A DNA stretch of 50,671 nt from Clostridia bacterium (GTDB lineage: Bacteria; Bacillota; Clostridia; Oscillospirales; Acutalibacteraceae). This document shows positions 5,675 to 38,337 of the stretch, piece by piece. The translations under genes and the position numbers were made by a program. Position 1 is the stretch's first letter. Every line of letters starts with the position of its first letter. The stretch covers positions 1 through 50,671 of the forward strand of contig JAFSDM010000009.1 of NCBI GenBank assembly GCA_017436225.1, given 5' to 3'. Under the pieces are notes generated by a model, which was not told where the DNA came from, did no database searches, and worked only from the letters and a program-made list of their open reading frames with translations.

Positions 5675-7540
5675 TTATTCTTTAGTGTCTGATTCGGTAT
5701 TATCTGTTTGTTGTTCTTCGTTGTTTATAGTTTTGCGAAGTCTCTCGCGCTCCATAAGGGCTTTTCTTTTGCCCTGCATATTAACAATTAAAGCAATGAT
5801 GAATATGATAAGCGCTAAAACCGCTATACCACCAACAACCGTCCATGTAAACTGCTTCATTGTCATGCCCAAAAAACCGCGTACTTCGGTAATTTTATAT
5901 TGTTCGGTAATGGGAACGTAATTTTCAAGCCAATCATCTTCATTAGGTGTTTGATTATAGATTATTACCTCATCACTTGATATACCACTAACGTTAAGCG
6001 CTACTATATAGCGTCTGCCCGAGTTGATATTCGCCATACGGTAGGGCGCAACACCATCTGTGCCGACCGTTACACTCTGCAAACGCTCCAACTCAGCTAA
6101 GAATGGCTTTTCGTAAAGGGATGCCACCTGACGAGCGGCGGTGGGGTCGATGTAAAGTTCAACCGTTGTTGGAAATTCAAAACGGTCCTCAAAGGAGAGC
6201 CAATAACTAACCGCACTGCCTAAAACGTTTTTATGGCTTTTAGAGGGGTTCTCATATCTGGTAAGGGTATATTCCATATCGTAGCTCTTTTTAAAGGTGT
6301 AGCCCTTTAACATACTACAATCTATGCTCCAATTACTTCCGCTTGGTGTGCGAATATAAAGCATAATATTTTTGCCTGCCAAATTTTCAAGCACTTTTCC
6401 GTAAAGCAACGAATCTTCTAAAATCATAACGTTAGCTGTAAGGGTAACATCACTGCCTATTTGTTCTTTTAAAAGGCCCTGCTCAAACACCTGATTTTTA
6501 AGGGTTTCGAGCACTTCGTTCCAGCCTTTTTCATTGCTAACCGAAGCGTTTACCTTAATTTCAGCTTCCCTTTCATCGCCAAGTGTTGTTTCGTTTATAA
6601 TTGGGCGAGAGATAATTGTTTCGGTTTGAATTTCGGAATTTTCAGAAGAGGTTATTTCGGTTTGAATTTCAGAACTTTTATCACCATCGGTTTCAAAAAT
6701 TTTATCACCAACCTGTGGTGGCTGTTCAGGCGAAGAATTAATCTGGTCGTAGGTGAACATATTTAAATCTTCGTTAATGTCTTCTAAAAGACTTTTTTTA
6801 TCTTCTTCGGTTCCGTTGTGATAAATTTCGGTAAAGGCTTCGCATCTGGCAAAGGCGGAATCGCCCAACTCCTTCATTTCAGAAGGGAGGGTTACCCTTT
6901 GCAAACGTGAGCAACCGTAAAAGGTCCATTCGGGAAGCTTTTGTAGAGGGCATAGAATTTTAACCTCTAGCAAGGATTCGCAATAGGCAAAAACCGAACC
7001 GCCCATACTTTCTAACCCTGCGGGCAGAGTAACGCTCTGCAAGGAAGCGCAACGGTAAAAAGCCGCATAACCAATGGTTTTAAGGCTTTGAGGCAAAATT
7101 ATATTTTTAATGGCAAAGCAACGAGAAAATGCGTACTCACCTATTGATTCCACATTTGAAAGGTAGACCGACTGCATAGCAGAACAGCCTGCAAAAGCCA
7201 TATTGCCTATGGTTTCAACATCTTCCGGAATGTTCACACCAACTAAAGCAGAGCAATCATAAAAAGCGAGATTGCCAATGGAGGTAATATCTGAATCGAG
7301 ATTTAACCTGTAAATCTCGCTACGATAAGAATACCACGGTGCGGGATTTTTTTCGGTAAAATTAGGAATACTGTCACCCTCTACCGTAAGCACGCCGCCC
7401 GATAAGGACCACTCCATATCATCCAGCTCACCCGAAGCCAGCGGTGCGGCAGCTGCGGTTAAGGTGATAAAGCCCATACAAATTAAAATTGTTAAAATCA
7501 TTGCCAAAATGCGACAAAATATATTTTTTTGTTTTAACAC
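5675..7540 (-). CDS. Membrane-anchored BspA-type leucine-rich-repeat surface protein
   Basis: A 621-residue protein starting with GTG behind AAGGAGG (7553-7559). Residues 1-32 form a Sec signal peptide (ILAMILTILICMGFITLTAAAA). Roughly residues 60-245 carry tandem BspA/TpLRR-like units of the form hxxIGxxAFxxCxxLxxVxLPxxhExIG. A Ser/Thr/Glu-rich linker with repeated SSEIQTE-type stretches follows, then a mixed domain. Near residues 563-587 there is a transmembrane helix (VVGGIAVLALIIFIIALIV), ended by a basic stop-transfer and an acidic cytosolic tail. There is no LPxTG sorting motif. It is the last gene of the 33-kb surface locus, so it may be an adhesin or scaffold for the fibres encoded upstream. 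Confidence 0.85.
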   Translation of the reverse strand: MLKQKNIFCRILAMILTILICMGFITLTAAAAPLASGELDDMEWSLSGGVLTVEGDSIPNFTEKNPAPWYSYRSEIYRLNLDSDITSIGNLAFYDCSALVGVNIPEDVETIGNMAFAGCSAMQSVYLSNVESIGEYAFSRCFAIKNIILPQSLKTIGYAAFYRCASLQSVTLPAGLESMGGSVFAYCESLLEVKILCPLQKLPEWTFYGCSRLQRVTLPSEMKELGDSAFARCEAFTEIYHNGTEEDKKSLLEDINEDLNMFTYDQINSSPEQPPQVGDKIFETDGDKSSEIQTEITSSENSEIQTETIISRPIINETTLGDEREAEIKVNASVSNEKGWNEVLETLKNQVFEQGLLKEQIGSDVTLTANVMILEDSLLYGKVLENLAGKNIMLYIRTPSGSNWSIDCSMLKGYTFKKSYDMEYTLTRYENPSKSHKNVLGSAVSYWLSFEDRFEFPTTVELYIDPTAARQVASLYEKPFLAELERLQSVTVGTDGVAPYRMANINSGRRYIVALNVSGISSDEVIIYNQTPNEDDWLENYVPITEQYKITEVRGFLGMTMKQFTWTVVGGIAVLALIIFIIALIVNMQGKRKALMERERLRKTINNEEQQTDNTESDTKE

Positions 7541-7588: not shown

Positions 7589-8266
7589 TTATTGCTCGTT
7601 TGTCTCTGTGTATTGCTTGTCAATTTTATTCTTTGCAGCCACTAATATCCAAATTAGTCCGCAAACAACTGCAACTATAGACCATATATTTCCCATTGGT
7701 AAAAGTGTTTCTGTGTAATCGGGTAATTCTCTGAACCAATTTAGGCAAAATCTGCAAGAGCCATAAAGCACTAAATACCATGCATATAATTGATTTCTTT
7801 TTTTGCCCTTTTTAAACCATACAAACAATATAATAAACAAACCTATAGCCATTAACATTTCTGCCATACGACTAGGAAAATAAACGGTTCCGTTTTGTGT
7901 TTCAAAAAGAGGTCTACCCTTGCAACAACCTGAAATATAGCAATGCACCTTCATAACGGCAGACATAAGACATTCGCCAACGGCACACATATCTAATAAC
8001 AAACCGTACGGCGCACGTAAAATAATAGCCACCAAAGAAAATACAATAGGTACTACAAAAACCGCTCCGAAAAAGGAAATTCCACCGAAAGACCCTGTTT
8101 CAATATAGTACATTAACATTGTTCCAAGCGTTCCTACGAGCGTTAAGATAACCGAAATTAACCCACACTTAAACGCAGATATATTTTGTTTCTTGCCCAT
8201 TGCCCAAATTGGGAAAAACATAAAAAGCGTTCCTATAGATAGGAATATTAAAATCTTTATTGGCAT
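7589..8266 (-). CDS. Prolipoprotein diacylglyceryl transferase (Lgt)-like integral membrane protein
   Basis: A 225-residue polytopic protein with about seven hydrophobic segments. It shows Lgt-like blocks in order: SFGGISFFGAVF, a helix ending CAVGECLMSAVMKVHCYISGCCKG, PSRMAEM, and a late RFCLNWFRE. The canonical Lgt signature GRxGNFxNxExxG is replaced by the GCCxG form, and the protein is shorter than true Lgt (about 260-290), so it is a paralogue rather than the housekeeping enzyme. An AGG ribosome binding site precedes ATG. It lies between a secreted fibre-like protein and the terminal LRR protein, suggesting lipid modification or membrane handling of surface components. That role is inference. 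Confidence 0.7.
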   Translation of the reverse strand: MPIKILIFLSIGTLFMFFPIWAMGKKQNISAFKCGLISVILTLVGTLGTMLMYYIETGSFGGISFFGAVFVVPIVFSLVAIILRAPYGLLLDMCAVGECLMSAVMKVHCYISGCCKGRPLFETQNGTVYFPSRMAEMLMAIGLFIILFVWFKKGKKRNQLYAWYLVLYGSCRFCLNWFRELPDYTETLLPMGNIWSIVAVVCGLIWILVAAKNKIDKQYTETNEQ

Positions 8267-8335: not shown

Positions 8336-11300
8336 TTATCTTGTACAAGTAAGTGACAACTGCTTCTCAACAGGTAGAGTAAAGGTATAAGATATATCGT
8401 TATTATCTGTTAAAATAATTTGGGTTCCCTTAGCATTAGTTCCAATATATGTTGGGTTATTACCTCCGCTTCCAACTGCCTGTTTGCTTGTAACACTTGT
8501 AGAACTAAAGGTAAAGGTCATGTCTGAAGCTGTGCCGGCGCTTTTAATTACAAATGAGCCTGACTTAAATTTATTACCTGCACTTACAAGTTCTACGGTT
8601 ATATAAGAAGCATCAAATCCATTACAGTCACAACCGGAGCTCTTTGCCTCAAAATAGCAAGTAGCAGAAAGTCCGTCAGCACTTATGGTATTGGATTTAT
8701 TTTCAGTCTCATCAGCTCCGGGTGATTTTTGCACCTTAAAGGACGTTCCTACCGCGGGATCAGTTTCTGTGAATTTTACTGTAGGCGCAACCGAGAATAC
8801 AGTATAGCTTGGTGCGTTACCGGCGTTAATATTTTCCTGAATAACAACCTGTTTTCCGCTTTCATCTTCAAGAGTGATTTCTACCTTGCCATCTGTTTTA
8901 TACATACCTGCTATAGAAATATTTTTTGTATTTTCATTAGGCTTGATGGTATATTTGCTTCCGTTATTAGAAAGAAGCTCATATGATGTTTGAGCGGTAG
9001 AAGTAAGGTTGGTCCAGCTTGCAGAATCCATTGTGTAACTACCAAAAGTATTAGTTACCGTTCCGCCACTAGCTGGTTTTGCGCTAGTTGAATCAAAGCT
9101 GTAATTCAACTTAATTTTAGTAACATTAATTCCATAATCGCTGAGCGGCTTTTTAGCGCTGCCTGCGGTAATATCAAGCTCTAAATTACCAAGCGTATGG
9201 GTAGTTCCGAAGGTGGCAGTTACCTTTCCATCGGTTTTACCAAATTCCTTGCTGGTATTAAGCGCTGAATCGCTAAACGCCACGTTAATATCACTAACTA
9301 CACGAATTGTAGTTTCGGTTGTTTCGCCCTCGGCGGTAATATCATCTATTGTCCACTCAAGCCACTTAATGTAGTAATTATCTGCTACTGTATAAAGCGG
9401 TTTGGTTTCTGTTGCGGTATCGGGACCGTTTTCAATAGAACCATCATAAAGGGTATTATCCCTACCACCGTAAACGTTGGTCATATAAAGTCTATCTAAG
9501 GTCCATGTACCGCTCTGACTTCCTTCTATAATCGGTAAAACAAAGGTGAATACCTGTTCATCGCCCTCATCTGACATAACACCGCGAACGTAATAGGTTG
9601 TGCCTGATTCATTTTTAAGTGCCGCATCTAATGTTGCCGAATCGGCATTCTTCATACGAACGGCGAATTTAGCAGAATTATTAAGCGCAAATACCTCGCC
9701 AAAGCCCTCTTTACTTACATACTTAGGCGGATTAGAGGAAATAGCGGTAATGGTAGGTGCTATAGCCGCCTCATTAAGGCTATTGTTTTCGCCCTGAACA
9801 TCAATAGAAACGTAGCTATAATTATAAATACCCGCCTTTGATAAACGGAAAATGCCCTGATAGGCTTGCGCCGAAGGGTTCCATACCATTTTTTCGCTTA
9901 AGCCCTGCTCTTGCACGCCAGAGCCGTTGTTGGAATAATAGAGCCATACGTTGTCTAAACCGCCAATACGTTCACCGCTGTCATCCTTAATGATTAGGGA
10001 CATATTTATATCACGGATTTCATCGGTTTCAAGGGCAAAGTTAGTATGGTCTGCATAAACGCTGGCAGTAAGTCCAAGATAAAGCTTAAGTGAGATATGA
10101 TTTCTTTCCTCCAAGCCGAAATACTGATCATCTAACTCAAGGTAATCCATAACGTAATCACCTGAAGTTCTAAAGTCGGCTGTACCAACCCATTCACCGC
10201 CAACCTTGCGTGTGAAATAAACGGTAGTACGGTTACCCGTATCCTGATGGATAAAGGCGCCCTTAACCGAAGTGGGCAATTTTTTAGGGTCGTTACTTGC
10301 AAAAGTAAGGCTTAAAGAGGTTTCATAGTTTTTATTGGTAGTCATAAAGGTTTTGCCATTATCAACACAGGTTAAACTGTTAATGGTAAAGCCTTCAACC
10401 GAGAATACAAGAGGTTCGTGCGAAAGTTCATAAGCAACGCCATCTAGGAATACTTCTCTAAGTATATACCTACCCGGCGATTCAAAGGTATGTTGCCCGA
10501 CCCACTTGCCCTCGGCATTCACCTCGAATACCATTTTGGTCTGTCTAATACCCTGAGTGCTATTGATTTCACGAAGGAAGTATGCTTCTACTCTTGAAGG
10601 AGTGTAACCATCAACGGTAACAACTACGGTTTTTGTAAGTAATGCGGGGGTAGGTGTATCAAAAGGAACGGTGGTATCGCCTTCCATTACTGCTGATACA
10701 CTGCACTTGGATTCCATAAGAATTGGGTCATCCATTGCATCTAAATCTGCAGTAGTGCCAAACTGAAGGTTAAGCTGACCTTGAATTTCGCCTGCTGCTA
10801 AAACCTGATCGTTGGTAAGACCAACACCATCCAAATAAACCAGGGCGGAAATAAAGGTTGCTTCATTTTGATTAAGACTTGTGATGGTATAAATTGGGTT
10901 GCCATCACTACCTGTGATGGAATTACTTGTGGTAGAAAGCACAAGAGGTACGGTTACTTTACCGGTTGCCTCAAAGCGATTATCTACATCCATATAAGCA
11001 GTAGCAAGTAAGTTGCCGTTTTGGTCTACAAATGCTATACGGAAATGTCTAAGAAGCTGTAAAGATTTTTCCTGATCTTCAGGGGATGATGCATAGAAGG
11101 TATAGCAGCTACCTGCGCCCTGAGTTGTGCTATCTCCATCTAACATAACGTTTTCTGAAGAATCCCATACTCTGTTTACTCCGTTATATCCAACAACGTA
11201 TTTGACCGTTTCTTTTAAAAGGGTAGCGTTGGTTATTTCTTCAGTGGTGCCCATTGCATCGCCCGGTACACCATATTCTAGGTCATAGTAATAGTAGGTA

Positions 11301-12940
11301 TCGCCTTCTAAATAGGCAGAATACTGCTCACCATCAAAGGTTATGGTATAAATATTATAGGATTTATTGTTAATTGTTCTTGTAACAATTTCTTCTCGCT
11401 CCTCATAAACGGGGCTACCTTGAAGTATTAAATGAGAATTAGCAGCGTTTGTACGAACAAAGAAATCTAAAGCCAAGCCAAAGGTATCTTTAGCCATTGG
11501 GTCGGTACCTTTAAAGTTGGTTGCACCTGAAATAGCCTGATTATACTCTGTCGCAAGCATAAATTTTTCTGTATTTTTAGGGTTGGAAGCATAGGTTATA
11601 ACGGTACCTGACATCTTTTTAGACATACCGTAAACGGATACCTTTAAAGAGATGCTTTTTGACTGAACCTTGGTTCCTGAAAGTTGGTCAACGTCTTTAA
11701 GGTAACCCGACTGCACCTCTACAACAACACTGCTTTTACCTGCAAGGTCCAGAATTGCAGAACCACCCAAGCTACCTAAAGCGGTGCCATCAATCTTAGA
11801 AGTAGCAATATTTACAACGTTATTTACTATAGGATAAAGTTCGGGCTTTTTATCTTCTTCGGCCGTTGTTGCTAGATTTTCCCAAACAACATCGGTACGA
11901 CCGCGCAAAGCATCTAGCTTTGCAATATCTGTTTTAAGGTTTGTGTATTTAGTGCGAAGGGTGGTAAGCCAGTTTTTATTAGCGGGAACAACTGCGGCTT
12001 CGCCCTTATCGTTCTTTGTGGCAATTTTAGCATTAAGTTCTGTTTGAGCTAAGTTGAGCAACTGATCGCCTGTGAATTTATTAGCCTCATAATACCCATT
12101 ACCCATACGGCGTATAAGCTGAATATTATAAGTTTCTGCCAAGGCATCGGCAATAAGTTCCATATTGCCCTTGAGCATTGTCATCATTTCATAGATTGAA
12201 TCTAGATGCTCGGGGTCGATTTTGATTTCTTTTTCAGCGCTACCAAGTTTTTGGTTTACCATTTCCTGTACGTATTGCTGCATTAAGACACCAAGGTCAT
12301 CAATCTGAGAAGAAGTCGCAATATTTTGCAGGTCAGTTTGAGCCGATTTAATTTTAATGTTTGCACTGTCAACACGATTTGCCAATGCAGTATCACCGCC
12401 AGCATCACCATAGATTACAGATGCAATAGTGCGAACACCGTAATTTACGTTTTGAGCCAAAAAGCTCTGAGTTGCGGCATCCCAACCGGCAAAAGCAAAG
12501 TCACTCTCTAAAGTGTCTACACGACCGTCTGCGCCATAACCCGCTGCATAAAGTGGGCTTTCTAAAAGAGAGTTGGTATTAAGGGTTGCAGGACGTAAAA
12601 CGATATTTTCCAAACCGTATACAGGGTCGCCCAAGTTAATAAGGTTACCCCACGTAATGTTTTTGCGCAACAAGTCCTTGCCGCTATCTCCTACCGCTGA
12701 ATCTTCAGGCAAGGTTATTTCGGCGCCATTTGCTAAGGCAATTTCCAAGTTACCATTAGCGGTAATTGTGGTGTTCATTCCCTTTATTTCAGGATTTGTA
12801 GAAAGCACAATCCAAGCAAAAGATGATGATACCATCATAACCACTGCAACCAATAATAAAACTAAGGCAGCACTAACCTTCTCCCGCATATGCGGAAGTT
12901 GCGCTTTGTATTTATTTATAAGTCGTTCAGTCTCTCTCAT
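8336..12940 (-). CDS. Giant SipW-type secreted surface protein (1534 aa), paralogue of the 672-aa protein
   Basis: A 1534-residue protein. After a basic N-terminus, residues 22-39 form a hydrophobic helix ending in SSSFAWIVLST (38-48), the small-residue/aromatic junction seen in SipW-dependent substrates. The first roughly 790 residues parallel the 672-residue protein at 24495-26513: both have ANGNLEIAL, ITWGNLI(N/D)L, YGADGRV/YGSDGRV and a closing LNLQF segment. The C-terminal half (about 740 residues) is extra and contains several beta-rich Ig-like stretches with recurring GxW-type openings. There is no C-terminal anchor, repeat array or catalytic motif. The start is fixed by GGAGG 6 nt upstream of ATG. 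It is probably an exported fibre-associated or tip/adhesive subunit; the family is not recognised beyond the signal motif. Confidence 0.8.
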   Translation of the reverse strand: MRETERLINKYKAQLPHMREKVSAALVLLLVAVVMMVSSSFAWIVLSTNPEIKGMNTTITANGNLEIALANGAEITLPEDSAVGDSGKDLLRKNITWGNLINLGDPVYGLENIVLRPATLNTNSLLESPLYAAGYGADGRVDTLESDFAFAGWDAATQSFLAQNVNYGVRTIASVIYGDAGGDTALANRVDSANIKIKSAQTDLQNIATSSQIDDLGVLMQQYVQEMVNQKLGSAEKEIKIDPEHLDSIYEMMTMLKGNMELIADALAETYNIQLIRRMGNGYYEANKFTGDQLLNLAQTELNAKIATKNDKGEAAVVPANKNWLTTLRTKYTNLKTDIAKLDALRGRTDVVWENLATTAEEDKKPELYPIVNNVVNIATSKIDGTALGSLGGSAILDLAGKSSVVVEVQSGYLKDVDQLSGTKVQSKSISLKVSVYGMSKKMSGTVITYASNPKNTEKFMLATEYNQAISGATNFKGTDPMAKDTFGLALDFFVRTNAANSHLILQGSPVYEEREEIVTRTINNKSYNIYTITFDGEQYSAYLEGDTYYYYDLEYGVPGDAMGTTEEITNATLLKETVKYVVGYNGVNRVWDSSENVMLDGDSTTQGAGSCYTFYASSPEDQEKSLQLLRHFRIAFVDQNGNLLATAYMDVDNRFEATGKVTVPLVLSTTSNSITGSDGNPIYTITSLNQNEATFISALVYLDGVGLTNDQVLAAGEIQGQLNLQFGTTADLDAMDDPILMESKCSVSAVMEGDTTVPFDTPTPALLTKTVVVTVDGYTPSRVEAYFLREINSTQGIRQTKMVFEVNAEGKWVGQHTFESPGRYILREVFLDGVAYELSHEPLVFSVEGFTINSLTCVDNGKTFMTTNKNYETSLSLTFASNDPKKLPTSVKGAFIHQDTGNRTTVYFTRKVGGEWVGTADFRTSGDYVMDYLELDDQYFGLEERNHISLKLYLGLTASVYADHTNFALETDEIRDINMSLIIKDDSGERIGGLDNVWLYYSNNGSGVQEQGLSEKMVWNPSAQAYQGIFRLSKAGIYNYSYVSIDVQGENNSLNEAAIAPTITAISSNPPKYVSKEGFGEVFALNNSAKFAVRMKNADSATLDAALKNESGTTYYVRGVMSDEGDEQVFTFVLPIIEGSQSGTWTLDRLYMTNVYGGRDNTLYDGSIENGPDTATETKPLYTVADNYYIKWLEWTIDDITAEGETTETTIRVVSDINVAFSDSALNTSKEFGKTDGKVTATFGTTHTLGNLELDITAGSAKKPLSDYGINVTKIKLNYSFDSTSAKPASGGTVTNTFGSYTMDSASWTNLTSTAQTSYELLSNNGSKYTIKPNENTKNISIAGMYKTDGKVEITLEDESGKQVVIQENINAGNAPSYTVFSVAPTVKFTETDPAVGTSFKVQKSPGADETENKSNTISADGLSATCYFEAKSSGCDCNGFDASYITVELVSAGNKFKSGSFVIKSAGTASDMTFTFSSTSVTSKQAVGSGGNNPTYIGTNAKGTQIILTDNNDISYTFTLPVEKQLSLTCTR

Positions 12941-12958: not shown

Positions 12959-14173
12959 TCAACGATAATCTACAAAAAATCGAACTACTGATTGATTAAA
13001 ATTAAAACCGTTGTACGATTGCTTAATAACTAACTGATATGTCCCCGCGGGTTGCAAACCGGTTGGAACACTGATTTGAAATTTACCGCCATCATCATTT
13101 TGGGTAACGGCAATTTTTAAGTTTTCACTTTGTGCGATTTTGCTATAAACACCATTAGACAACTTTTGAAGCTCCCAGCTAAACTGAACGCCGCTTGTCT
13201 GCCCATCGTTCCATTTAGAATCTTTTAAACCGCTGGGCTCTGAAACTGTTACGGTAAACGGCTTGTTTTTATTTACAATGGGCTCTTTGCTTACCGATAA
13301 AGTTAAAGGATCTTTTTGCGATTTTACAGAAAAGCTTATTTCTGACTGATGCTCATAAGAACTACCAATGGTTATTTTATACGGATTTGCGGTGCCGCCG
13401 TTACGGTCAATCAAAATTTCCTCCGCCGAGCTGGTAGTACGCGGACAATAAATAACGCTGTTTCTAACCAAGGCAACGCCCTGCGGATAGGTTTTATTAT
13501 AATAACGAGTTCCTTTAGCAAAGCTACCACTGAGATTTCCACCCTGCGCTACGTAGGTTCCACTTGCGCTGGAAGGAATTACAAAGGAAAGGTGAAAAAG
13601 ATTGCTTGTTAAAGAACCTTCGGATGATTCAAATTTAGGTGCCGAAGTTGCTCCCGAGCAGAGCGCATCAGGATTTAAGGCAATAAGATAACGCGCAGAT
13701 TTTGTAGGTTTTGTGGCGCCTTCGGGAGTCCACTCAACATTCATATATGCAACGCCGCTACGTTGCTGCGCCGAAATAATTAAAGAAAATGGAAGGTCTA
13801 TGCGGCCATCCTTTTCATCAACCTGAACTACGGAAGTAAAGGAAGAATTTACCTCTAATGCAATATCATTTTTTTGCGCAGTTGTGCCATCAAAAGAAAA
13901 GGTCATTTTACCTTTAAGAGCGCCCGCTTGTTGCAAAACAACGGTAGACTCTAAGTCGTCGCCGCCCTGCTCCCAACATCCAAAGTCATAGATCTTGCAA
14001 ATTTCTGCCACGGTAGATGGATTGTTTGCTTCTCCATACAAGGTGGAAATAACTCCGCTAAACTGATAACGGGCAGATGCAACTCCAATAAAGCTTAATC
14101 CAATGCCAAGCATTAGAAATAGGCTTATAGCAACAATCGCAATATGGAGTTTTTTGTTTTTGTGCTCTGCCAC
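12959..14173 (-). CDS. SipW-type signal-anchored surface protein (404 aa)
   Basis: A 404-residue exported protein starting with GTG behind AAGGAG. Residues 10-32 form the hydrophobic segment, followed by GVASARYQFSG, a variant of the small-residue/aromatic cleavage region found in its neighbours. The mature part is Ser/Thr/Gly-rich and predicted beta-rich, with an Ig-like C-terminal region (residues about 290-400, ending VVRFFVDYR). No enzymatic motif is visible. It is separated by 12 nt from the 172-residue gene upstream and 18 nt from the giant gene downstream, so co-expression is likely. It is best described as a minor surface subunit of unknown family. Confidence 0.75.
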   Translation of the reverse strand: MAEHKNKKLHIAIVAISLFLMLGIGLSFIGVASARYQFSGVISTLYGEANNPSTVAEICKIYDFGCWEQGGDDLESTVVLQQAGALKGKMTFSFDGTTAQKNDIALEVNSSFTSVVQVDEKDGRIDLPFSLIISAQQRSGVAYMNVEWTPEGATKPTKSARYLIALNPDALCSGATSAPKFESSEGSLTSNLFHLSFVIPSSASGTYVAQGGNLSGSFAKGTRYYNKTYPQGVALVRNSVIYCPRTTSSAEEILIDRNGGTANPYKITIGSSYEHQSEISFSVKSQKDPLTLSVSKEPIVNKNKPFTVTVSEPSGLKDSKWNDGQTSGVQFSWELQKLSNGVYSKIAQSENLKIAVTQNDDGGKFQISVPTGLQPAGTYQLVIKQSYNGFNFNQSVVRFFVDYR

Positions 14174-24444: not shown

Positions 24445-24476
24445 CTCCCGCCCACGATTTTGGTCGTAGGCGGGAG
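24445..24476 (-). terminator. GC-rich hairpin just downstream of the 672-residue surface gene
   Basis: CTCCCGCC plus ACGA (24445-24457) pairs with TCGT plus GGCGGGAG (24464-24476), with one C/A mismatch and a 6-nt loop, 19 nt past the stop codon. No U tract follows on the minus strand. It could be a partial terminator or an mRNA-stabilising 3' structure for an abundant transcript. Confidence 0.55.
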
Positions 24477-24494
24477 TAACTTTATAAAATTTAA

Positions 24495-29097: not shown

Positions 29098-30267
29098 TTA
29101 ATCATCGTTTATATCGTAATCAATTAATGGAGTATTGTCAGTAAAATTCTTTTTGCGACGTTTGAAATAGTAAATTCCAAAACCAACAAGACCAAGATTG
29201 ATAACAAAGCTAACGATAAATAAGATCAACCAAAGTTTATGTAACCAGATGTTACAGTAATCATCTGTAGGATTAACCTCAACTGGTGTATCTACGCCTA
29301 TGATTTCGCCTTTGCCTAATTCTTCAAGCTTTGCTTTGTAAGCAGCAAGCGCATCTTTAAGTTCTTTAGTTGCTAATGCAACAGCTTCATCATTACCGTT
29401 TTTGAGTGCTTTTTCTGCGGCTTCAATAGCAGCAACTAATCTATCGCTTAATGCTTTAAGCTCATCTTTTGCTAAGAAATCTTTAGCCTCTTTAATGAGA
29501 GCGCTTAAATCTTCATCGTATAAACGAACAAGATTTGCGATAGCTTTTTTAAGGTTGCTTGCAGCGGTGTTGATTTCGGCCTGAGTGCTTGCTTTAAGAG
29601 CAGCTTTTGCTGCAGCTAAAGCAGTTTGCATATTTGCCCAAGAATCTGCGCTGTAATCGCTCTCGGTAAGACCGTTTGCGATAGAGATTTGCTTCTTTAA
29701 AGATGTAAAATCTAAACCGGTGCTGGCAGGTTTAGAAGTAGTGGTAGGTTTAGAGCTGGTAGGCTTAGAAGAAGTAGTAGGCTTAGAAGAAGTAGTAGGT
29801 TTAGAAGAAGGATCTACCTTCTTTTCAATTACCTGAACGGTTACTGATTTATTTAAACCATCTTTAAAATCATTACCTGTTTTGTCATCTACTCTTAAGT
29901 AGTCAGAGAATGTAACGGTGCAGGTGTCGCCAACCTGTGCATCTGCACTGATTTTAGCGGTAAGAGTAACAACAAACTCTACTTTTTCGAAATTACTAAG
30001 TATAAATTTAGTAGCAGTAATTGGTCCGTAGGGGGAATTTCCGGGAGTTACAGAAGAGAACATTGAACGGTTGCTATATTTAATGCTACCATCCAAACCG
30101 AAACAAGCGCCCTCGGAAAGCTTGATTGTAACGGTCTCACCGGGTGCTGCTTTGATGGTTTGAGCAGAGGGTGTGGCGGCAGCTTGTGCCACCATACCCA
30201 AACTAAACATACTTGCAAGCATTACCACAATGAGAACGACAGAAAATAGCTTTTTAATATTTTTCAT
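29098..30267 (-). CDS. Membrane-anchored surface protein with cohesin-like and FIVAR domains
   Basis: A 389-residue protein with a signal peptide (1-30, ending AQAA). Residues about 32-150 form a beta-sandwich-like region with PGETVTIKLSEG, an SVTPGN turn and VGDTCTVTFSDYLRVDD, reminiscent of a cohesin. A Ser/Thr/Lys/Pro linker of repeated SSKPTT follows. Residues about 186-248 (LTESDYSADSWANMQTALAAAKAAL...) are a clear FIVAR domain, then a helical Ala/Leu/Lys/Glu-rich spacer to about 320. A transmembrane helix (about 342-366) with a basic KRRKK stop and a short acidic tail anchors it. The neighbouring 2680-residue protein ends in a dockerin, which makes the cohesin reading attractive but unproven. 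AGGAG precedes ATG. Confidence 0.75.
   Translation of the reverse strand: MKNIKKLFSVVLIVVMLASMFSLGMVAQAAATPSAQTIKAAPGETVTIKLSEGACFGLDGSIKYSNRSMFSSVTPGNSPYGPITATKFILSNFEKVEFVVTLTAKISADAQVGDTCTVTFSDYLRVDDKTGNDFKDGLNKSVTVQVIEKKVDPSSKPTTSSKPTTSSKPTSSKPTTTSKPASTGLDFTSLKKQISIANGLTESDYSADSWANMQTALAAAKAALKASTQAEINTAASNLKKAIANLVRLYDEDLSALIKEAKDFLAKDELKALSDRLVAAIEAAEKALKNGNDEAVALATKELKDALAAYKAKLEELGKGEIIGVDTPVEVNPTDDYCNIWLHKLWLILFIVSFVINLGLVGFGIYYFKRRKKNFTDNTPLIDYDINDD
29740..29820 (-). repeat. Low-complexity SSKPTT linker repeats
   Basis: Repeats of GTAGTAGG(C/T)TTAGAAGAA units on the plus strand encode successive TTSSKP units, a flexible, probably wall-spanning linker between the cohesin-like and FIVAR domains. 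Confidence 0.75.
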
Positions 30268-30294: not shown

Positions 30295-33200
30295 TTACTT
30301 TGTTTGTGAAACATATCCGTTTTCATCCCAGAGTACGTACTTGGTTTCGCAAAGTACTGTATCACGAGAATTGAGCTTACCGTCAAAGTTCATATCAGCA
30401 GCCATTGCGCTGTAACCTTCAAGTGAAAGCTCATCAACGTAAGCAAGTTTCATTTGTAATACGTCACGAGAATTGAGTATACCGTCGCAGTTGGTATCAC
30501 CCATAATAACGATATTATAGGTAACGCTTACTTCAACGCCATCCTTATTTGTTGCAACTACCTTTACGGTATCGCCTGTGCAAACAAGTTCATTGTTACC
30601 GCGAACGAAAGAGTCACTGCCGTACTTGTAGATAGAAATATTGTACTTAGAAGCATTATCTATCTTGAAGTAAACTTCAGCAAATTCCTTAGCGGTGAAG
30701 CCTGCGGGATTAACGTCTAAGTAGATTAACTTATTATCAGCATCTACCTTAGCACCGCGGATGATACCATCTTCGGTATCTACGTTGGGTTCAGGAATAT
30801 GAATCTTAGGTAATTTAGCTAATTCTTTTTGCTCTACGAATACTTCGCCGCAAACAGAACAGTGTGAACCTTCTGTTAAACCGGTTTCAGTTTCTGTAGG
30901 AGCCTTAGCAGGATCAATAACCTTGGTATGACCTGTAGCAGGGATTTCGGTTTGTTCTGCAAATACCTCACCGCAGACAGAACAGTGTGAACCTTCTGTT
31001 AAACCGGTTTCAGTACAGGTAGGCTCTTTTGCAGCATCGGTAACTATTGTGTGACCGAGTGCAGGAAGCGGAATGGGCGCGATAAACACGTGTCCACAAC
31101 CGTTAGGACAAACTACGGAGCTAGTGTAACCGTCTTCGGTACAGGTAGGTGCCTTGCCCTCAACAATAATCATACCGTGGCCGGTAGCAGGAATTACTTC
31201 GCCTTGCTCTACCATTTCGCCGCAGACAGAACACTTAGAAGCGTTTGCAACACCATCTTCGGTACAGGTAGGCGCTTTATTGTAATCTTCAAGAGTATGA
31301 TGAGCTTTGATTACTTCTTGTGCTTTAACAACGTATCCGCACTTAGTACATATCTCACCATCGGTTAAACCGTTTTCGGTACAGGTAGCTGGATAACCCT
31401 TAACGGTTTCGGTTGTGCCTATGTGGTTAGTAGCAGCAACGCGATCGGTTACATAGGTGTCGCCACAGTTGCCGCAAGTGTGGAGTGTATAACCTTCCTC
31501 GTAGCAAGTGGGTTCAACAACTGTTTCGGTGTAAGCGTGACCAAGAGGACTGATAGGCTGTGGTTCTTTGCCATCTTTATACTTATGACAGTTCTTACAC
31601 CACTCACCTTCTGTAGAACCGGGGTTCTCACAGTCAGGAGCTACTGCAGGAATGATTTCCCACTCATGCTGTCCGCCTTCGATAGCGTAAACAAACCAAT
31701 TATCAACCTTAGTGCAGATAACTTCAGAACAGAATTCTTCACTGTTACAAATAATGCTGGCAGCGATATCTTCATCTGTTGTTAAGGTAGTATTACCATC
31801 TACAAACTCTAAAGTCATGCCTGCGAAGTCAATATTCTTTGCATTTACAAGCTTAAATGCTACTGCAGGTAAAACAACGTTTTTATCAAGAACTACAGGT
31901 TTATTGATGTAGATTGTTGCACCCTCGCGAGCTGCTGCGAATGCTTCTGCCAAACTATCGGTATTGAGATAGATAATACCGGATTCATCCTTAACGGTGA
32001 TTGCTTTTTCCTCTGCAAAAAGAACAAGGGTCATCTGTGCATAGGTGTCAGGTTTATAGGTGTAAGCATATTTGTAAGTAGCATATTCACCACTAACTTT
32101 AATTGAAGCAAGTGAAGCGTTGCCGCCGCTTATATCAAAGTGGTCAACTACTGTTGATACAACCTTACGAGCGAGTGTGTAAAGTGATTCTAACTCAACT
32201 GCGTCATTAGCAGTAATGCCTAAAGCTTTAAGAACGGAGCTGAAGCTCATGCTCTTTGTAGCCTTAAGAGCTGCAGTAATTTCAGAAGCGGTTGCAGTTT
32301 CTATTGCTTTTTGTAATGCAATAGCAGAATTGCTTGTTTGATAATACTTAATTGCTTCAACCAATTCGGCTCTCTTAGCTCCCTTAGCGTTGTAAGCAAG
32401 GAATGAACCGATGATTACAGGATAGTTAACGTTCTTAGAAAGGTCTATTACAGCATCAGCTCTAGCTGCGCCGATAGCGCTGAAGCCTTTGCTATCATAA
32501 GTGACGTCTTCGATTTCAACTTCAAGTGCGTTGAAGGAAACTACGTTATCAAGCTCTCTGAGAACTTTAATCATCTTAGTTTGATGATCTGCAGGAACAT
32601 CATCATCAAGTAAAACGTTAAGATGTGTGATTTGCTTATTATCTGTTGCAGCTTCAACATTGAAGGAGAAGAATGCATCGTCACCTTCGCCTTCCAACTT
32701 CATGAAAGGATTAAATGCTGCATTTTGAATTGTGTAGCTTACTAATGGAGTACCGTTTTCTAAAGCGTCAGCTAATGCGCCGAAATCGGTTACATCATCC
32801 ATGAACTGAGTTGCGAAAGCAGAAGCGCCTTCGCAATCGAATACTTCAACAGCCTTGCCGATAAGTACAGAAAGGTCGTTGAGAGATTCGGTAACATTGT
32901 GGAGGTTAAGACTGTAAATTACATTACCGTCGATAACCAGTTCGGAACAATGGTAGTAATTGAACCAAAGTTTGAAGAGAAGGTCGGTTGCCATAACCTT
33001 TGCAGCAGCCTCGTCAAGTGACATATAGTCTGTGCCAAGGTAAAGGTTAAGTTCGCCATTTTCTTCAGCAATATTGAAGATGCCGTTGGTAACAACGTTT
33101 TCTTTTAAATAGTAGCCTGCTTCAAGATATTTTTCAGCGCCACTGAGATATTTACCTGCGCTTAAGGTGAAGTTTCCGCCATTGGCAATGAGCTTGCCAA

Positions 33201-36200
33201 CTACGCTGCCGCAATCCTTAGTTCCAAGAGTGCTATCAACAACAGAAACATTGCCCTTTGCGGTAATATCGCCGCTAATTGTACAACCGTTAAGGTTGAG
33301 AATTATATCGTTATTGATTGTCATGTTACCGTGAACGTTAGAAATAAGAATAACAACACCATTGTCGCTTACCTTGCTGATGTCAGCAACGATATTTCTG
33401 CTCATATAGTATTTGTTAACAATTCCGCTAGCTTTAATATCAAGAACCATTGCTTGATATTCGGTTTCACGGTTTTTAAGTTCAACTGCTACAGGAAGGG
33501 CTAAGCCGGTATCCTTTTCAGCAATCATAGAAGACATATCGCCTAAGTCAATCTTGTTATTTAATAAAACATCAAGTGCTTCATAGGTTAATACGCCGTT
33601 ATATTTGCCACCGTTGGAGCTACCTTCGAAAGCGATGCTATCGAATAAGTGGTCAAATGTGTTGTAGAAGAAGTCGATTAAAGCACGGTTTGCTTCGGTA
33701 TCAAAATCGGCGATTGCAGAATAGAAACCTGTTTGCTCAATAGTATTGATAAAGGTTTCAGAAGAGATACCCTCGGTATCAAACACAGGAGCAACAAGAT
33801 CATAGAAGTACTCTAAAAGATCTTTAAGCTCATAGTCTTGGAGAGAATCAAACTCAACTTGGCCAACAATTAACATAGAAGCCAAGAAGTAAGCGTAAAC
33901 GCTGTCAGGAGCGTTAACTGCTACGTTAACTGCGCCTTCTTTGAAGTTAAGGTTAAGGTAAGGACGGATTTGCTCGATGCCCTTTTTAACCTTCTTAAGA
34001 AGCTCAGCCTGGCTATCGAAATCCTGATAGGTTACGTAGAATGCTGCGCTGGTTGTGTTGTTGATGTTTACACCATATTGCATAGTGCTTTCCATCAATT
34101 TACCACCAAACTGGTCAACATTGTTGATAACCGCATTATCAAGAACGATCTTATTATCTTTAGCACCGATAACGGTTGCGCCGGCTAACTTCATCTCTTT
34201 GATGTTGCCGTTAGCATCAATCATATTTGCGATAGAATCAAAGCCGAGATTGCTGTTTACTAACATATTAATAATAGTCTGAATGTAAAGCTTCATCTCG
34301 TTATCGCTGTTAAGACCGAATAATGGGCTTCCGTTAAGACCAACGTAAGAGAGATCTTGAATAAGATTGGTCATTTCACTTGCAAGTGCTGCAGGAGAAA
34401 GTGTACCGTAATCATTTGTAATACGAAGTACGATAGAAAGATTGCCGTTAGCATCTTCTACAGGAATGAATGCTACTGCTAATTTACCGCCAGAAACTAA
34501 GCCACCGTTAGCAAAAGCATTATTTAATTTACCAACAAAGTTGATTAAGTTCTCTCTGTTGATGTCAATAAGCTCGCGAGTGATAACCAACTCTGCATTA
34601 GCACCGAATAAAGCATCGATAGCTACGATGTCGGTACCTAATGAGTAATTCTCTAAAGCACCGGAAAGAACTTCCACGGTAGTAGTGCCATAGGTGTATT
34701 TGTATTTAAGACCTGCAACACCTGTGCCGGGGAGGATAATTGTATAAGCATCAAAAGCGTAAAGAACCTGCTCTGCTGCGCCTTCAACCTTAACTGTGTA
34801 GGTCTTAGGACGAAGAACAGAAGTGTAAACGGTATCTTCTTCTTTTAATACAACTGCTGAAGTTGGGAGATTTTTCTCTGCAACGTAATACTTATTATTA
34901 GGAATAGTTGCGAGAAGCTCGTTATACATTGCTTCAAATGCAACGGCAGAGATTTCTTTGCCTTGTGCACCAAAAGCTTCCTTCTTAAAGGTTTCAACTA
35001 CACCATCGTTCTTATTAAGAACCTGAATTTCAACTGCGTAGCTAGTAAGACCGGGAGCGCTTGCAGAAACGTTTGCCTCTAAAACGAAGGTGTTATCAGC
35101 AACGTTGTGAGAGGAAGTAGAGCCTTCGCCCTGAACTGTTGCTAACAAGGCATCAACAAATGAGCTCTTAGTATTAACTAAAGCGTTAACAGGCTTTAAG
35201 GTTGTTGCGCTAAGCATATTTAATACTGCTTCAACCTTAGGTGACTGGCTTTCCATTCCCATACTTACGATAGTATCTTGAACGGCAGCGTCGTTCCAAA
35301 CCTTTGGTAAAAGCTCATTAATAAGTGCAATTTGCTTTTGAATATTAGCAGCGTTTTCGCCCTTATAATAATAAGCAATACCGTCTTTTTGATATTGTGT
35401 TAAGTATTCATAGAGATAGGTTGAACCTGTAGTAGGATTGATGCATTCATCGGTGAGTTTTGCAAGAGCCTCTCTAGCTTGGGCGCTCATACCGGAAACC
35501 ATAGTGCCGATACTACCTAAAAGGGTATTGTTAACGGTACCAAGGTTGCTATAGAAGCCGGGAGCAAGGAACTGATCTAAGTCTGCCTTTTGCTCGGCAA
35601 CATCTTTTTCTAAGGTGTTGGCGATATTTAAGAATTCTTTAACTGTAGCAAATTCTACTGCATCAACAGAAAGCTGATATGCGATTTGTACACTTGAGAA
35701 CTCTTTATCACATTTGAAGGTTGCCTCATATACAGTGCCAACCTTTGTGAAGGTGAAGGAAATATCACTTCCGCTACCCTTTACAACGTAAGCAGAAACA
35801 GGAATCCACGCAGCATCACTACCAACGATACCTGCACTCATAGGTTCTGCTACTACTTTATATTCATTATCAGAGCCAACGATAGCGGTAACTTTTGCTA
35901 ATTTGTCTGAACTATCGGGGGTGCGATAATAAATTTTTTCATTCTTTTCATCCTTAAAAGCATCGCTGTTAAGAACGTTCTTTTCTTTATCGCTTAAAGC
36001 AGTACCAACAAACTTACCTGCAGCGATGAGCTGTGCAACCTTCTTAGAAGCGAGTGCTTTACCTTCTTTACGGGTAACTTCAATATCTTTTACGATGCGA
36101 ACAACGGTGTTTTCACGGTGAGCAACGCCATCAATCTTATATTCATAAGATTTAGAAAGCTCTGCGGGACGTGGTAAGAGCCAGTTGTAACCATAAGGCA

Positions 36201-38337
36201 CTTCAGTAACTGTTGTACCTTCGGTGTAGTTTTCGTTAATTTTATATTTTTTAGGACTATAAGTAATGGTGTAAGTAACGTCGTCAAGTAAAGCTTCAAA
36301 GGAATCAATTTCGTTTCCTTCTTTATCTTTAATTACAACGGTACGGTAGTAGTTTGCTTCACCAACGTTATACTCTTTATCCCAATTACCAAGTGTAGAT
36401 TTTTCAATGCCGGATGCTTCAATAGCTGCAAAAACATCAGATGCAGCTACACCCTTATCCATTGGGAAGTTAATGCTTCCAACTTCAAGAGAAACGAGTT
36501 CTTCAGAGTTTTGAGAATTTAAAGGAACAACAGCAGCTGCTACGTTTACATTAACAACGTATTGGTCAACCATTGCAGAAATAACGGTTTCACAAGCAAG
36601 TAGCTTCTCTTTAATAGCAACATCACTATGGTCTTGTGCATAAAGTTTCTTCTTAACTGAATCGTATGCTGCTTTTACTACAACGTCTAAAGCCTGATAC
36701 TCTTCGTCAGTAACGCCATCTTTGAGTAATTTCTTGCCAATGAATTTCCATTCCTGATTTTCGTAATCAGCAACAAAGCCTAAAACGTCGCCTAAGCCAA
36801 CGCTACCGTTTGCACCGGTAACAATGTCTTCAACCTCAGTTGCTTTAGCAAGAGCGGTCTCAGCATATACGTCTAAATCAGCCTTTTTGGCAAGTAAGGT
36901 TGCTACTGCTTCGTCACCCTTAGCATAGATGGTGCGGATTGCTTCTTCAAGTAAATCCATAGCGCCAATGCCATCGGTACGAATCATTGCAGCAAAGCTT
37001 GCAAGGGTAGGATTGTTAGTGCTAACACTAATATTCTCTACTTTTGCTGCCTGTTGCTCTAAAAATACACGCTTAGCTTCGATCTCAGTATAAACAGCAT
37101 TATCCTTACGGGTTTTGCCCTTAAGAGAATCAAAATCAGATTCTTTAATGTATAAAGAAGCAAGTGGCATTTCATTGATTTTCTTAATTAACTCTGCAAT
37201 AGCTTTGTTAATAAGCTCTTGAACAGCATCTTCAACAACACCTGCTAACTCATTAGCGGCGTTATCAATTTTATTCTTTGCATCAGCAATGGTGCCTTCA
37301 CCGGTGCCGGTTGCAAGATTTTTTAACTGATCTGCTAAGCCTAATAACTCATCGCTATTATCTACGATACCTTCCATTTGTGAATAGAACCAAGAAATGT
37401 CGCCTTTAAGCTGAGCGCCGCTTTCCATCATATACTGAACCTTGCTTTTTGCTGTGTTATAAGCATCAAGATCCAAGGAAAGCGTAGAACGGCTGCCGTT
37501 TTTATCATAATCAGCTAAAATGTTTCCAAGATATTTCTTAACGTTGGAATCACCACTTAAGCCAATAGTATAACCTGCAGCAAAATCGTTCTTAAGGTTA
37601 TTGATGAAGGTGTTAAAGCTATCAAGCTGCTTTAACTGATCCATACCTTCCATGTTTTCAAGCGCACTGAAATCAACAGAATATGTAATACCATTGTAAA
37701 GAACACGGAGATCTTCCATTTTTTCTTCAATAGCATTAACAGCTAATTTTAATGCACTTGTGGAGTTGATCTGTGAATAACCCTCTGCAAGATAGTAAGG
37801 AGTATTGAGTAATAATTTCTGATCTGCCTCAGCCACAGGAATCATAAGAGCATAAGTCACCTCTGCTCTGTATGAGTTGGCGGGCTTTTTGAAATTACCA
37901 ACGTATACGTCACCACTCTTGTTAAGAGTAACCTTAATGTCGGTACCTGCAGTGCCATCTAAATTGGTGTACTTAATCACCGCTGAAGTTGGCTCCCAAG
38001 TAAAACCATCGACAGTGTAAGGTTTAGCGGTTACGGTTTGTGCATCTGCATCTACCGTTACCAAGCCTTCGTCATTATCTGTTGGAATTGCCACTGAATA
38101 GGTTGCTCCGGCAATGGCTGAGTTAGCTAAGATAGCCTTCTCTTTGTCATTAAGCTCGGTGTAGTTGTTAGCAACCAACTCTCCGGCAGTTCCGGTCCAA
38201 ACATTGTCAAGCTGGGCATTAATGGTCTCATCAGAATTAACCGCAAATACTTGGGTTACTCCAATGCTGGTAACAATCATCAATACCGACAACAACAACG
38301 CTGTGGATTTTTTGAGAAATCTTTTAAGGTTCCCCAT
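30295..38337 (-). CDS. Giant secreted modular protein (2680 aa) with Cys/His repeats and C-terminal dockerin
   Basis: The largest gene of the window. Residues 1-32 are a Sec signal peptide (LLSVLMIVTSIGVTQVFA). Two related modules (about 33-200 and 760-920) contain ELNDKEKAIL/ALSDKEKNVL followed by beta strands and long helical parts, showing an internal duplication of several hundred residues. A parallel-strand section (near 1690-1760, with DIILNLNGCTISGDI) follows. Seven tandem units of H-x(7-10)-P-x-C-x3-G-x(6-8)-C-x2-C-G are encoded at about 30830-31665; the last has PTETETG, losing one Cys. The final 68 residues form a type I dockerin with two calcium loops, DTNCDGILNSRD and DMNFDGKLNSRD. 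No glycosidase catalytic domain is visible. It is probably a matrix or scaffold protein attached through its dockerin. Confidence 0.85.
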   Translation of the reverse strand: MGNLKRFLKKSTALLLSVLMIVTSIGVTQVFAVNSDETINAQLDNVWTGTAGELVANNYTELNDKEKAILANSAIAGATYSVAIPTDNDEGLVTVDADAQTVTAKPYTVDGFTWEPTSAVIKYTNLDGTAGTDIKVTLNKSGDVYVGNFKKPANSYRAEVTYALMIPVAEADQKLLLNTPYYLAEGYSQINSTSALKLAVNAIEEKMEDLRVLYNGITYSVDFSALENMEGMDQLKQLDSFNTFINNLKNDFAAGYTIGLSGDSNVKKYLGNILADYDKNGSRSTLSLDLDAYNTAKSKVQYMMESGAQLKGDISWFYSQMEGIVDNSDELLGLADQLKNLATGTGEGTIADAKNKIDNAANELAGVVEDAVQELINKAIAELIKKINEMPLASLYIKESDFDSLKGKTRKDNAVYTEIEAKRVFLEQQAAKVENISVSTNNPTLASFAAMIRTDGIGAMDLLEEAIRTIYAKGDEAVATLLAKKADLDVYAETALAKATEVEDIVTGANGSVGLGDVLGFVADYENQEWKFIGKKLLKDGVTDEEYQALDVVVKAAYDSVKKKLYAQDHSDVAIKEKLLACETVISAMVDQYVVNVNVAAAVVPLNSQNSEELVSLEVGSINFPMDKGVAASDVFAAIEASGIEKSTLGNWDKEYNVGEANYYRTVVIKDKEGNEIDSFEALLDDVTYTITYSPKKYKINENYTEGTTVTEVPYGYNWLLPRPAELSKSYEYKIDGVAHRENTVVRIVKDIEVTRKEGKALASKKVAQLIAAGKFVGTALSDKEKNVLNSDAFKDEKNEKIYYRTPDSSDKLAKVTAIVGSDNEYKVVAEPMSAGIVGSDAAWIPVSAYVVKGSGSDISFTFTKVGTVYEATFKCDKEFSSVQIAYQLSVDAVEFATVKEFLNIANTLEKDVAEQKADLDQFLAPGFYSNLGTVNNTLLGSIGTMVSGMSAQAREALAKLTDECINPTTGSTYLYEYLTQYQKDGIAYYYKGENAANIQKQIALINELLPKVWNDAAVQDTIVSMGMESQSPKVEAVLNMLSATTLKPVNALVNTKSSFVDALLATVQGEGSTSSHNVADNTFVLEANVSASAPGLTSYAVEIQVLNKNDGVVETFKKEAFGAQGKEISAVAFEAMYNELLATIPNNKYYVAEKNLPTSAVVLKEEDTVYTSVLRPKTYTVKVEGAAEQVLYAFDAYTIILPGTGVAGLKYKYTYGTTTVEVLSGALENYSLGTDIVAIDALFGANAELVITRELIDINRENLINFVGKLNNAFANGGLVSGGKLAVAFIPVEDANGNLSIVLRITNDYGTLSPAALASEMTNLIQDLSYVGLNGSPLFGLNSDNEMKLYIQTIINMLVNSNLGFDSIANMIDANGNIKEMKLAGATVIGAKDNKIVLDNAVINNVDQFGGKLMESTMQYGVNINNTTSAAFYVTYQDFDSQAELLKKVKKGIEQIRPYLNLNFKEGAVNVAVNAPDSVYAYFLASMLIVGQVEFDSLQDYELKDLLEYFYDLVAPVFDTEGISSETFINTIEQTGFYSAIADFDTEANRALIDFFYNTFDHLFDSIAFEGSSNGGKYNGVLTYEALDVLLNNKIDLGDMSSMIAEKDTGLALPVAVELKNRETEYQAMVLDIKASGIVNKYYMSRNIVADISKVSDNGVVILISNVHGNMTINNDIILNLNGCTISGDITAKGNVSVVDSTLGTKDCGSVVGKLIANGGNFTLSAGKYLSGAEKYLEAGYYLKENVVTNGIFNIAEENGELNLYLGTDYMSLDEAAAKVMATDLLFKLWFNYYHCSELVIDGNVIYSLNLHNVTESLNDLSVLIGKAVEVFDCEGASAFATQFMDDVTDFGALADALENGTPLVSYTIQNAAFNPFMKLEGEGDDAFFSFNVEAATDNKQITHLNVLLDDDVPADHQTKMIKVLRELDNVVSFNALEVEIEDVTYDSKGFSAIGAARADAVIDLSKNVNYPVIIGSFLAYNAKGAKRAELVEAIKYYQTSNSAIALQKAIETATASEITAALKATKSMSFSSVLKALGITANDAVELESLYTLARKVVSTVVDHFDISGGNASLASIKVSGEYATYKYAYTYKPDTYAQMTLVLFAEEKAITVKDESGIIYLNTDSLAEAFAAAREGATIYINKPVVLDKNVVLPAVAFKLVNAKNIDFAGMTLEFVDGNTTLTTDEDIAASIICNSEEFCSEVICTKVDNWFVYAIEGGQHEWEIIPAVAPDCENPGSTEGEWCKNCHKYKDGKEPQPISPLGHAYTETVVEPTCYEEGYTLHTCGNCGDTYVTDRVAATNHIGTTETVKGYPATCTENGLTDGEICTKCGYVVKAQEVIKAHHTLEDYNKAPTCTEDGVANASKCSVCGEMVEQGEVIPATGHGMIIVEGKAPTCTEDGYTSSVVCPNGCGHVFIAPIPLPALGHTIVTDAAKEPTCTETGLTEGSHCSVCGEVFAEQTEIPATGHTKVIDPAKAPTETETGLTEGSHCSVCGEVFVEQKELAKLPKIHIPEPNVDTEDGIIRGAKVDADNKLIYLDVNPAGFTAKEFAEVYFKIDNASKYNISIYKYGSDSFVRGNNELVCTGDTVKVVATNKDGVEVSVTYNIVIMGDTNCDGILNSRDVLQMKLAYVDELSLEGYSAMAADMNFDGKLNSRDTVLCETKYVLWDENGYVSQTK
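30830..31665 (-). repeat. Seven Cys/His-rich tandem units within the giant protein
   Basis: Units begin at His (HEWEII, HAYTET, HIGTTE, HHTLED, HGMIIV, HTIVTD, HTKVID), each about 40 residues with PxC...C..CG. The last two units are nearly identical at protein level except that PTCTETG has become PTETETG. The four-ligand pattern could bind zinc or form disulfides. Confidence 0.8.

Follow-up and report, generated by a model that had tools for sequence, protein, structure and literature searches.

Gene content and organization of the locus

We analysed a 50,671-nucleotide stretch of DNA from a Clostridia bacterium (contig JAFSDM010000009.1; hereafter the window), in which 17 open reading frames, all on the minus strand, occupy positions 5675–38337. 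At the centre of this locus lie a membrane-anchored, McrB-like AAA+ nucleoside triphosphatase (NTPase), a DUF2357 protein and two SipW-type signal peptidases, set among anchored surface proteins and a protein with domains of the cyclic di-GMP (c-di-GMP) type. A preliminary description, made from the letters of the sequence, had listed seventeen consecutive minus-strand genes here; every frame was found again, and most of the domain labels agreed with Pfam and NCBIfam searches. The genes, and one further feature, are listed below with their strand and, in brackets, the evidence.

38602–38633 (−): terminator-like hairpin of 14 pairs with a T tail, between metH and the locus (consensus scan)
30295–38337 (−): DOC, secreted protein of 2680 residues that opens the unit, with a signal peptide and a dockerin at its C terminus (PF00404, 26.9 bits; cut-off 22.9)
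29098–30267 (−): FIVAR, surface anchor with a short cytosolic tail, combining a signal peptide and a C-terminal membrane segment with a weak cohesin-like domain and a FIVAR-like repeat (PF07554, 24.9 bits, below the cut-off of 29.2)
27623–29074 (−): HD-EAL, an HD-GYP-like domain fused to an EAL-like one, with HQ in place of the HD motif (PF13487, E 2.8e-16; PF00563, E 8.5e-10; alignment; kept position)
26619–27626 (−): S335a, membrane-anchored protein (segment 82–100), ectodomain homologous to SipW-type subunits (synteny and profile comparison)
24495–26513 (−): S672, signal-anchor surface subunit of the SipW type, with a gap of 275 bases after it (subunit profile A4, matched over its first 75 positions)
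23212–24219 (−): S335b, SipW-type surface subunit, anchor motif ATYTWF (sequence)
22313–23158 (−): SipB, Ser-His signal peptidase of the SipW type whose cytosolic tail is charged (TIGR02228, 80.3 bits; NF046067, 100.7 bits, below its cut-off)
20703–22289 (−): ATPase, McrB-like AAA+ NTPase with N-terminal membrane segment, coiled-coil-like stretch and NxD motif (PDB McrB match by family profile; motifs)
18887–20662 (−): CC591, 591-residue DUF2357 (McrC N-terminal) protein whose long tail is charged and coiled-coil-like (PF09823 via homologues)
17556–18887 (−): S443, SipW-type surface subunit (profile A4, E 8.7e-69, S443 being itself a row of A4)
16746–17525 (−): SipA, second SipW-type Ser-His signal peptidase, overlapping the next gene by 92 bases (TIGR02228, 78.1 bits)
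14726–16837 (−): S703, anchored surface protein, hydrophobic segment at residues 88–106 (sequence; homologues in G142, G038, G192 and G103)
14186–14704 (−): S172, small surface protein with related signal anchor (sequence; homologues in G038, G192 and G103)
12959–14173 (−): S404, surface protein with related signal anchor (sequence)
8336–12940 (−): S1534, large SipW-type surface protein (N-terminal part matches A4, E 8.0e-15; homologues in G038, G192, G131 and G103)
7589–8266 (−): a second, divergent LGT-like membrane protein (PF01790, 61.2 bits; 40 bits to the lgt equivalog TIGR00544, whose cut-off is 118.9)
5675–7540 (−): LRR, leucine-rich-repeat protein of the BspA type, with a signal peptide and, at the C terminus, a membrane segment (PF13306, E 2.8e-57)

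Numbers beginning with G denote genomes and those beginning with L loci from other genomes. Intergenic gaps do not exceed 105 bases, with the sole exception of 275 bases at 24220–24494, and three neighbouring pairs overlap. This longest gap lies after the S672 gene, and a simple scan of it gave no site for partial termination or RNA processing. The hairpin at 38602–38633 suggests that the locus is a transcription unit separate from metH; the scan that located it returned 23 such sites in the region against 17.0 expected, a modest excess. Since the same gene order recurs in distant genomes, the grouping is more than chance.

The dockerin, Lgt-like and LRR labels of the preliminary description passed the Pfam cut-offs (dockerin, LGT and LRR_5), as did HD_5 and EAL in the protein encoded at 27623–29074. 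Its cohesin-like/FIVAR anchor fared less well, with the FIVAR repeat falling just under the cut-off and the cohesin-like part resting on sub-threshold matches (E 0.077–0.092) of cell-wall anchoring (scaffoldin) chains to the N-terminal stretch of the protein.

The NTPase, the DUF2357 protein and the signal peptidases

The ATPase was found in 25 of 245 genomes of the order, one distant match (G148, 29% identity inside a 1023-residue frame) being excluded from the 24 genomes considered further, and the DUF2357 protein was found in 23. These genome counts leave out short fragments and the second copies in G103 and G143. A class-level sample gave matches in 15 of 291 genomes, 13 of them new, and a phylum-level sample in 3 of 299, including the window's own genome; the other two match only part of the ATPase. 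We also gathered 80 named loci, the best of 580 named relatives and thus a set that favours close relatives. The order-level, class-level and named-locus sets overlap, with at least three loci in common. Among the 80 named loci the DUF2357 protein is present in 77, and in 75 it is the immediate neighbour of the ATPase. By the preliminary description's own criterion, an ATPase pair found mostly without SipW-type genes would have refuted a single system. Peptidases instead accompany the pair in 20 of the 24 order-level genomes, 10 of the 13 new class-level genomes and 78 of the 80 named loci. The three class-level exceptions are G434, which belongs to a transglutaminase branch described below, G450, which has the pair without a peptidase, and G344, a fragment. 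Synteny in distant genomes also bears out its expectation of one system conserved in order across Clostridia.

On its own the window ATPase gives only a weak AAA_5 match in Pfam. A profile of 19 homologues matches Escherichia coli McrB in the PDB (E 1.5e-6), and the protein has one membrane segment (residues 57–75), followed in the alignment by a charged conserved stretch; the earlier label of a membrane-bound McrB-like ATPase is thereby upheld. It keeps Walker A and Walker B, and its NxD motif reads GTINNDDST. Full-length homologues have GTxNxD in 78 of 78 cases, and Walker A and Walker B each in 77 of 78. The 591-residue protein by itself matches neither PF09823 nor any other informative family, and 14 of its 21 homologues match PF09823 (DUF2357, the N-terminal domain of McrC; best E 2.1e-14). 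Long, charged, heptad-like stretches, judged by inspection, are seen in both the ATPase and the DUF2357 alignments. Among the Pfam matches of the 21 DUF2357 homologues there is no nuclease family, including the McrC nuclease, a search that covers sequence families only. In the locus of the window itself, Pfam and NCBIfam revealed neither a nuclease nor a HEPN gene (PADLOC was not searched).

Both peptidases exceed the cut-off of the archaeal/ER-type profile TIGR02228 (78.1 and 80.3 against 51.85 bits), and both match the SipW equivalog NF046067 under its cut-off (78.8 and 100.7 against 190 bits). The Ser and His columns are invariant in all 158 peptidases gathered from the loci, in agreement with the two Ser-His signal peptidases first proposed; a stricter letter pattern (Ser-Met then His-Arg, at set spacing) fits 98 of them. 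Their cytosolic tails bear a conserved charged motif with a near-invariant Glu (128 of 132 aligned), and a letter pattern for this tail occurs in 44 of the 158 against a mean of 0.7 in shuffles. A tail motif common to the peptidases and DUF2357 was considered and rejected, only 1 of 77 DUF2357 tails having the pattern, which is not above shuffles.

In 7 of 77 DUF2357 proteins a complete SipW-type peptidase is fused after DUF2357 within one open frame, scoring 163–197 bits against the peptidase model. The carriers include the cultured strains Ruminococcus albus 8, R. albus KH2T6 and R. flavefaciens YRD2003. Where they are not fused, the DUF2357 and peptidase genes adjoin; in the window one subunit gene stands between them. 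Gene fusions usually indicate cooperating parts, and the seven found here suggest that DUF2357 and the peptidase work together. Next after the peptidase, whether fused or separate, the R. albus-like loci (L146 and many Ruminococcus loci) have a pair of small genes of about 150 and 75 residues; for the pair at L146:14581–15282 no informative Pfam family was matched.

Surface subunits, regulators and variants of the locus

The eight proteins that had been credited with SipW-type or related anchors each contain a single hydrophobic anchor. In six it lies within the first 45 residues, and in the remaining two (14726–16837 and 26619–27626) at about residues 82–106, behind a cytosolic stretch. An alignment of the SipW-type subunits shows a common C-terminal pattern, WxEGxDxDC. 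With membrane parts removed, the S335a ectodomain and the subunits matched in a profile comparison at 97.4% (E 1.3e-11); six unrelated comparisons reached at most 0.42%, and the best-scoring of 30 shuffles 5.87%. S335a lies upstream of the ATPase in 73 of the 80 named loci and is present in 18 of the 20 peptidase-bearing order-level genomes. Because its ectodomain is common with the subunits, S335a is a candidate base or seed of the product. In the window's own genome, which is 87.8% complete, SipA and SipB are the only TIGR02228 peptidases above the cut-off (a third, weak match lies elsewhere), and the subunit profile A4 gives five matches, all inside the locus; peptidases and clients thus form a closed set.

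Searches of PDB sequences with the subunits returned only matches to membrane segments or designed proteins. TasA membership of the subunits was rejected on sequence. Neither the window proteins nor the whole of the own genome match camelysin/TasA (PF12389), and a profile test against a two-sequence camelysin-like profile, a weak negative, found only the signal-peptide region in common. Camelysin/TasA proteins do exist in 29 of 147 genomes of the order.

A c-di-GMP-type regulator lies upstream of S335a in 49 of the 80 named loci, a count that rests on these loci, and in 46 of the 61 with at least 6 kb of upstream DNA. It takes three forms, HD alone (10 loci), EAL-like alone (26) and HD fused to EAL (13), a few of the EAL-like-alone regulators being longer and scoring less well. 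These same 80 loci supplied the HD and EAL models, and the order-level set was scanned with the HD-EAL model only. Pfam found EAL in 19 and HD_5 in 13 of 29 aligned regulators. The preliminary assignment of such a regulator to the system is supported by this linkage and by the Pfam-confirmed domains. Since c-di-GMP-type domains recur in different forms, control of the locus by c-di-GMP is suggested. The window protein is degenerate, as first described: by alignment inspection its HD is HQ and its EAL residues are incomplete, so that it fails the intact HD-GYP/EAL catalytic residues of a c-di-GMP phosphodiesterase. HD-only relatives keep the key residues, for example HD and HHE...GYP in L103, and likewise in Lachnospiraceae 10-1. 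G368 offers another link to c-di-GMP, with genes for a PilZ protein and a protein with an HD domain upstream of the system (L173:11541–14435).

The full set of the window (dockerin protein, FIVAR anchor, HD-EAL protein, subunits and LRR protein) recurs in G038, G192, G103 and, less some members, G131; G142, whose contig is short, has part of it. A DOC homologue is first in the locus in G038, G192, G131 and G103. The ATPases of this extended variant are about 70% identical, although the host genomes belong to other families of the order; within the window's own family the ATPase occurs besides only in G043 and G118, at 43–48% identity. This disparity points to horizontal transfer or much loss. 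FIVAR anchor proteins (alignment A6) have a cytosolic tail, TPLxDYDI, after the membrane segment in 4 of 7 cases, with a near-match in a fifth; it is possibly a docking tail.

A sister branch (G076, G130, G143, G166 and G434) has ATPases of the family without SipW-type peptidases. In all three of its genomes that were scanned (G076, G166 and G434) a transglutaminase-core surface protein lies nearby. In G166 MBG-type repeats accompany it, and no DUF2357 was found in that genome. This branch suggests that the engine serves more than one kind of surface product. In G076 and G434 two ATPases flank DUF2357. At L067:13744–21086, L065:646–5343 and L172:2262–10182, family ATPases lie beside transglutaminase-core proteins, and those stretches contain no SipW-type peptidase.

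Among the other genes of the window, those of both flanks are metabolic. The left flank (158–5553) encodes an FMN oxidoreductase, a short-chain dehydrogenase (SDR), an FAD protein, a TIM-barrel protein and a 2-hydroxyacid dehydrogenase. The right flank (38661–47032) encodes methionine synthase, MTHFR, TrkH, an SPFH protein and an aminotransferase. The better-scoring Lgt of the genome sits on another contig than the divergent copy at 7589–8266. The C-terminal third of DOC contains repeated cysteine-paired modules (TCTExG...CxxCG) ahead of the dockerin.

Comparison with known systems and proposed function

The locus had been presented as possibly undescribed, which does not hold for its core. 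Bell et al. (2024, eLife; PMC11090510) named a CoCoPALM clade in a short passage and deferred its study. They describe an NxD McrB-like NTPase with an N-terminal FtsB-like membrane and coiled-coil part, and a coiled-coil DUF2357 McrC homologue, associated with signal-peptidase-family genes. The locus has the NxD NTPase, the adjacent DUF2357 and signal-peptidase-family genes, two in the window. The passages of that paper on CoCoPALM hold no surface subunits, anchored homologue, HD/EAL regulators, peptidase fusion, dockerin/FIVAR/LRR variant or transglutaminase branch. CoCoPALM in this sense was found only in that paper and its preprint, and a search for McrB together with SipW found nothing related, most subscription journals lying outside both searches. 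The ATPase/DUF2357/peptidase core is therefore known by name, not by function.

With McrBC the locus has in common an McrB-like AAA+ domain and the N-terminal domain of McrC encoded side by side; it differs in its membrane anchor, NxD for NxxD, linkage to secretion genes and the lack of a nuclease among the families found. CoCoNuT systems include a nuclease, either that of McrC or an associated one of HEPN or another kind, and there is none among the Pfam and NCBIfam matches of the locus. Type IV pili and sortase pili are surface polymers, those of type IV having an ATPase at their base in the membrane. Pfam and NCBIfam recognised no prepilin peptidase, secretion ATPase or sortase among the 17 genes. 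In Bacillus, TapA is part of the SipW-TasA matrix system. The SipW-TasA-TapA system and SipW-BsaA of Clostridium perfringens resemble the locus in having a SipW-type peptidase in an operon with secreted subunits, in so far as the passages of PMC7395162 and PMC13082335 (the latter on the TasA/CalY/CapP matrix system of B. cereus) describe them. Those passages mention no AAA+ NTPase or DUF2357. The present subunits, moreover, are not recognised as TasA/camelysin, and the peptidases are two rather than one. Because BsaA needs SipW for export and forms filamentous polymers (PMC7395162), a polymeric product is plausible here as well. PcdA of Staphylococcus aureus, an McrB-family protein co-opted for cell division, offers a precedent for an McrB relative leaving defence; according to the relevant part of the preprint (PMC10602043) it is without an McrC partner and most NTPase motifs, both of which are kept in this locus.

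We consider it probable that the genes of the locus together specify a single, CoCoPALM-type envelope machine, which matures surface subunits and would assemble them, presumably into a polymer. The argument for a single machine draws on synteny, the DUF2357-peptidase fusions, regulator linkage, the NxD and Walker motifs, the ectodomain homology, the closed set, and the McrB and DUF2357 matches. The NTPase may form a ring under the membrane, as McrB does, and DUF2357 may activate it, as McrC activates McrB. The DUF2357 tail would hold the peptidases at the ring, and the anchored S335a would seed or tether the product. Turnover of nucleoside triphosphate (NTP), gated by the HD/EAL protein, would couple subunit cleavage to assembly of the surface polymer, to which the dockerin, FIVAR and LRR proteins of the extended variant probably attach or which they decorate. 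The ancestor may have been an McrBC restriction module that lost its nuclease. A more far-reaching version is offered tentatively, as possible though doubtful: the signal peptidase itself would be a mechanical subunit, with NTPase ring, DUF2357 and SipW-type peptidases in one complex, cleavage and assembly powered and timed by NTP, a c-di-GMP switch acting through HD/EAL receptors at the cytosolic face, and the transglutaminase branch as a second cargo class.

Several observations weigh against the single machine. Four of the 24 order-level genomes have ATPases without a peptidase, as do two of the 80 named loci, of which L096 starts at the ATPase and L099 has flanks; the sister branch likewise argues against a purely peptidase-bound role of the ATPase family. 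No regulator was detected, by the models used, in 15 of the 61 loci with at least 6 kb upstream. No FtsB/DivIC family appears among the Pfam matches of the 19 ATPase members. The pairwise distances of the parts correlate (Spearman 0.59–0.69 in seven comparisons, reached by 0 of 999 permutations), but this measure of co-inheritance ignores species kinship. To these may be added the negative camelysin/TasA results, which also suit a reading without a polymer, in which the peptidases mature separate surface proteins such as adhesins or scaffoldins and the ATPase is a secretion or quality-control factor. The very unequal subunits (172 to 1534 residues) fit this as well, and the dockerin, FIVAR and LRR proteins point to adhesion. 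We nevertheless regard it as unlikely, given that the characterised SipW clients considered here polymerise, BsaA being the example in the cited part of PMC7395162, and that the anchored S335a has the subunits' ectodomain, as a fibre base would.

Anti-phage defence, in which the surface proteins would shield receptors or be set free as cargo upon infection, would be in keeping with the McrB and DUF2357 ancestry and with the patchy distribution over the order and within the window's own family. It is made quite improbable by the fixed linkage to secretion genes and by the nuclease and HEPN searches described above, with the scope given there. The existence of ATPases without peptidases in the sister branch might also be taken to mean that a SipW surface cluster and an McrB-like pair are two unrelated, merely neighbouring sets. 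Set against linkage in 78 of the 80 named loci, seven gene fusions and an order kept across families, this is scarcely credible, and the fusions come close to refuting it already.

To the named core the present work adds the peptidase linkage counts, the DUF2357 fusions, the regulator forms, the shared ectodomain, the closed set and the transglutaminase sister branch; it also makes the degenerate HD-EAL protein comparable with HD-only and EAL-like-only relatives at the same gene position. If the single-machine reading is true, part of a restriction enzyme has been turned into an engine that builds the cell surface and whose activator is linked to a peptidase, and the named CoCoPALM clade would gain a concrete, testable function. 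Gut and rumen Clostridia, including the cultured R. albus and R. flavefaciens, would then possess an unrecognised surface organelle, which may aid adhesion to fibre.
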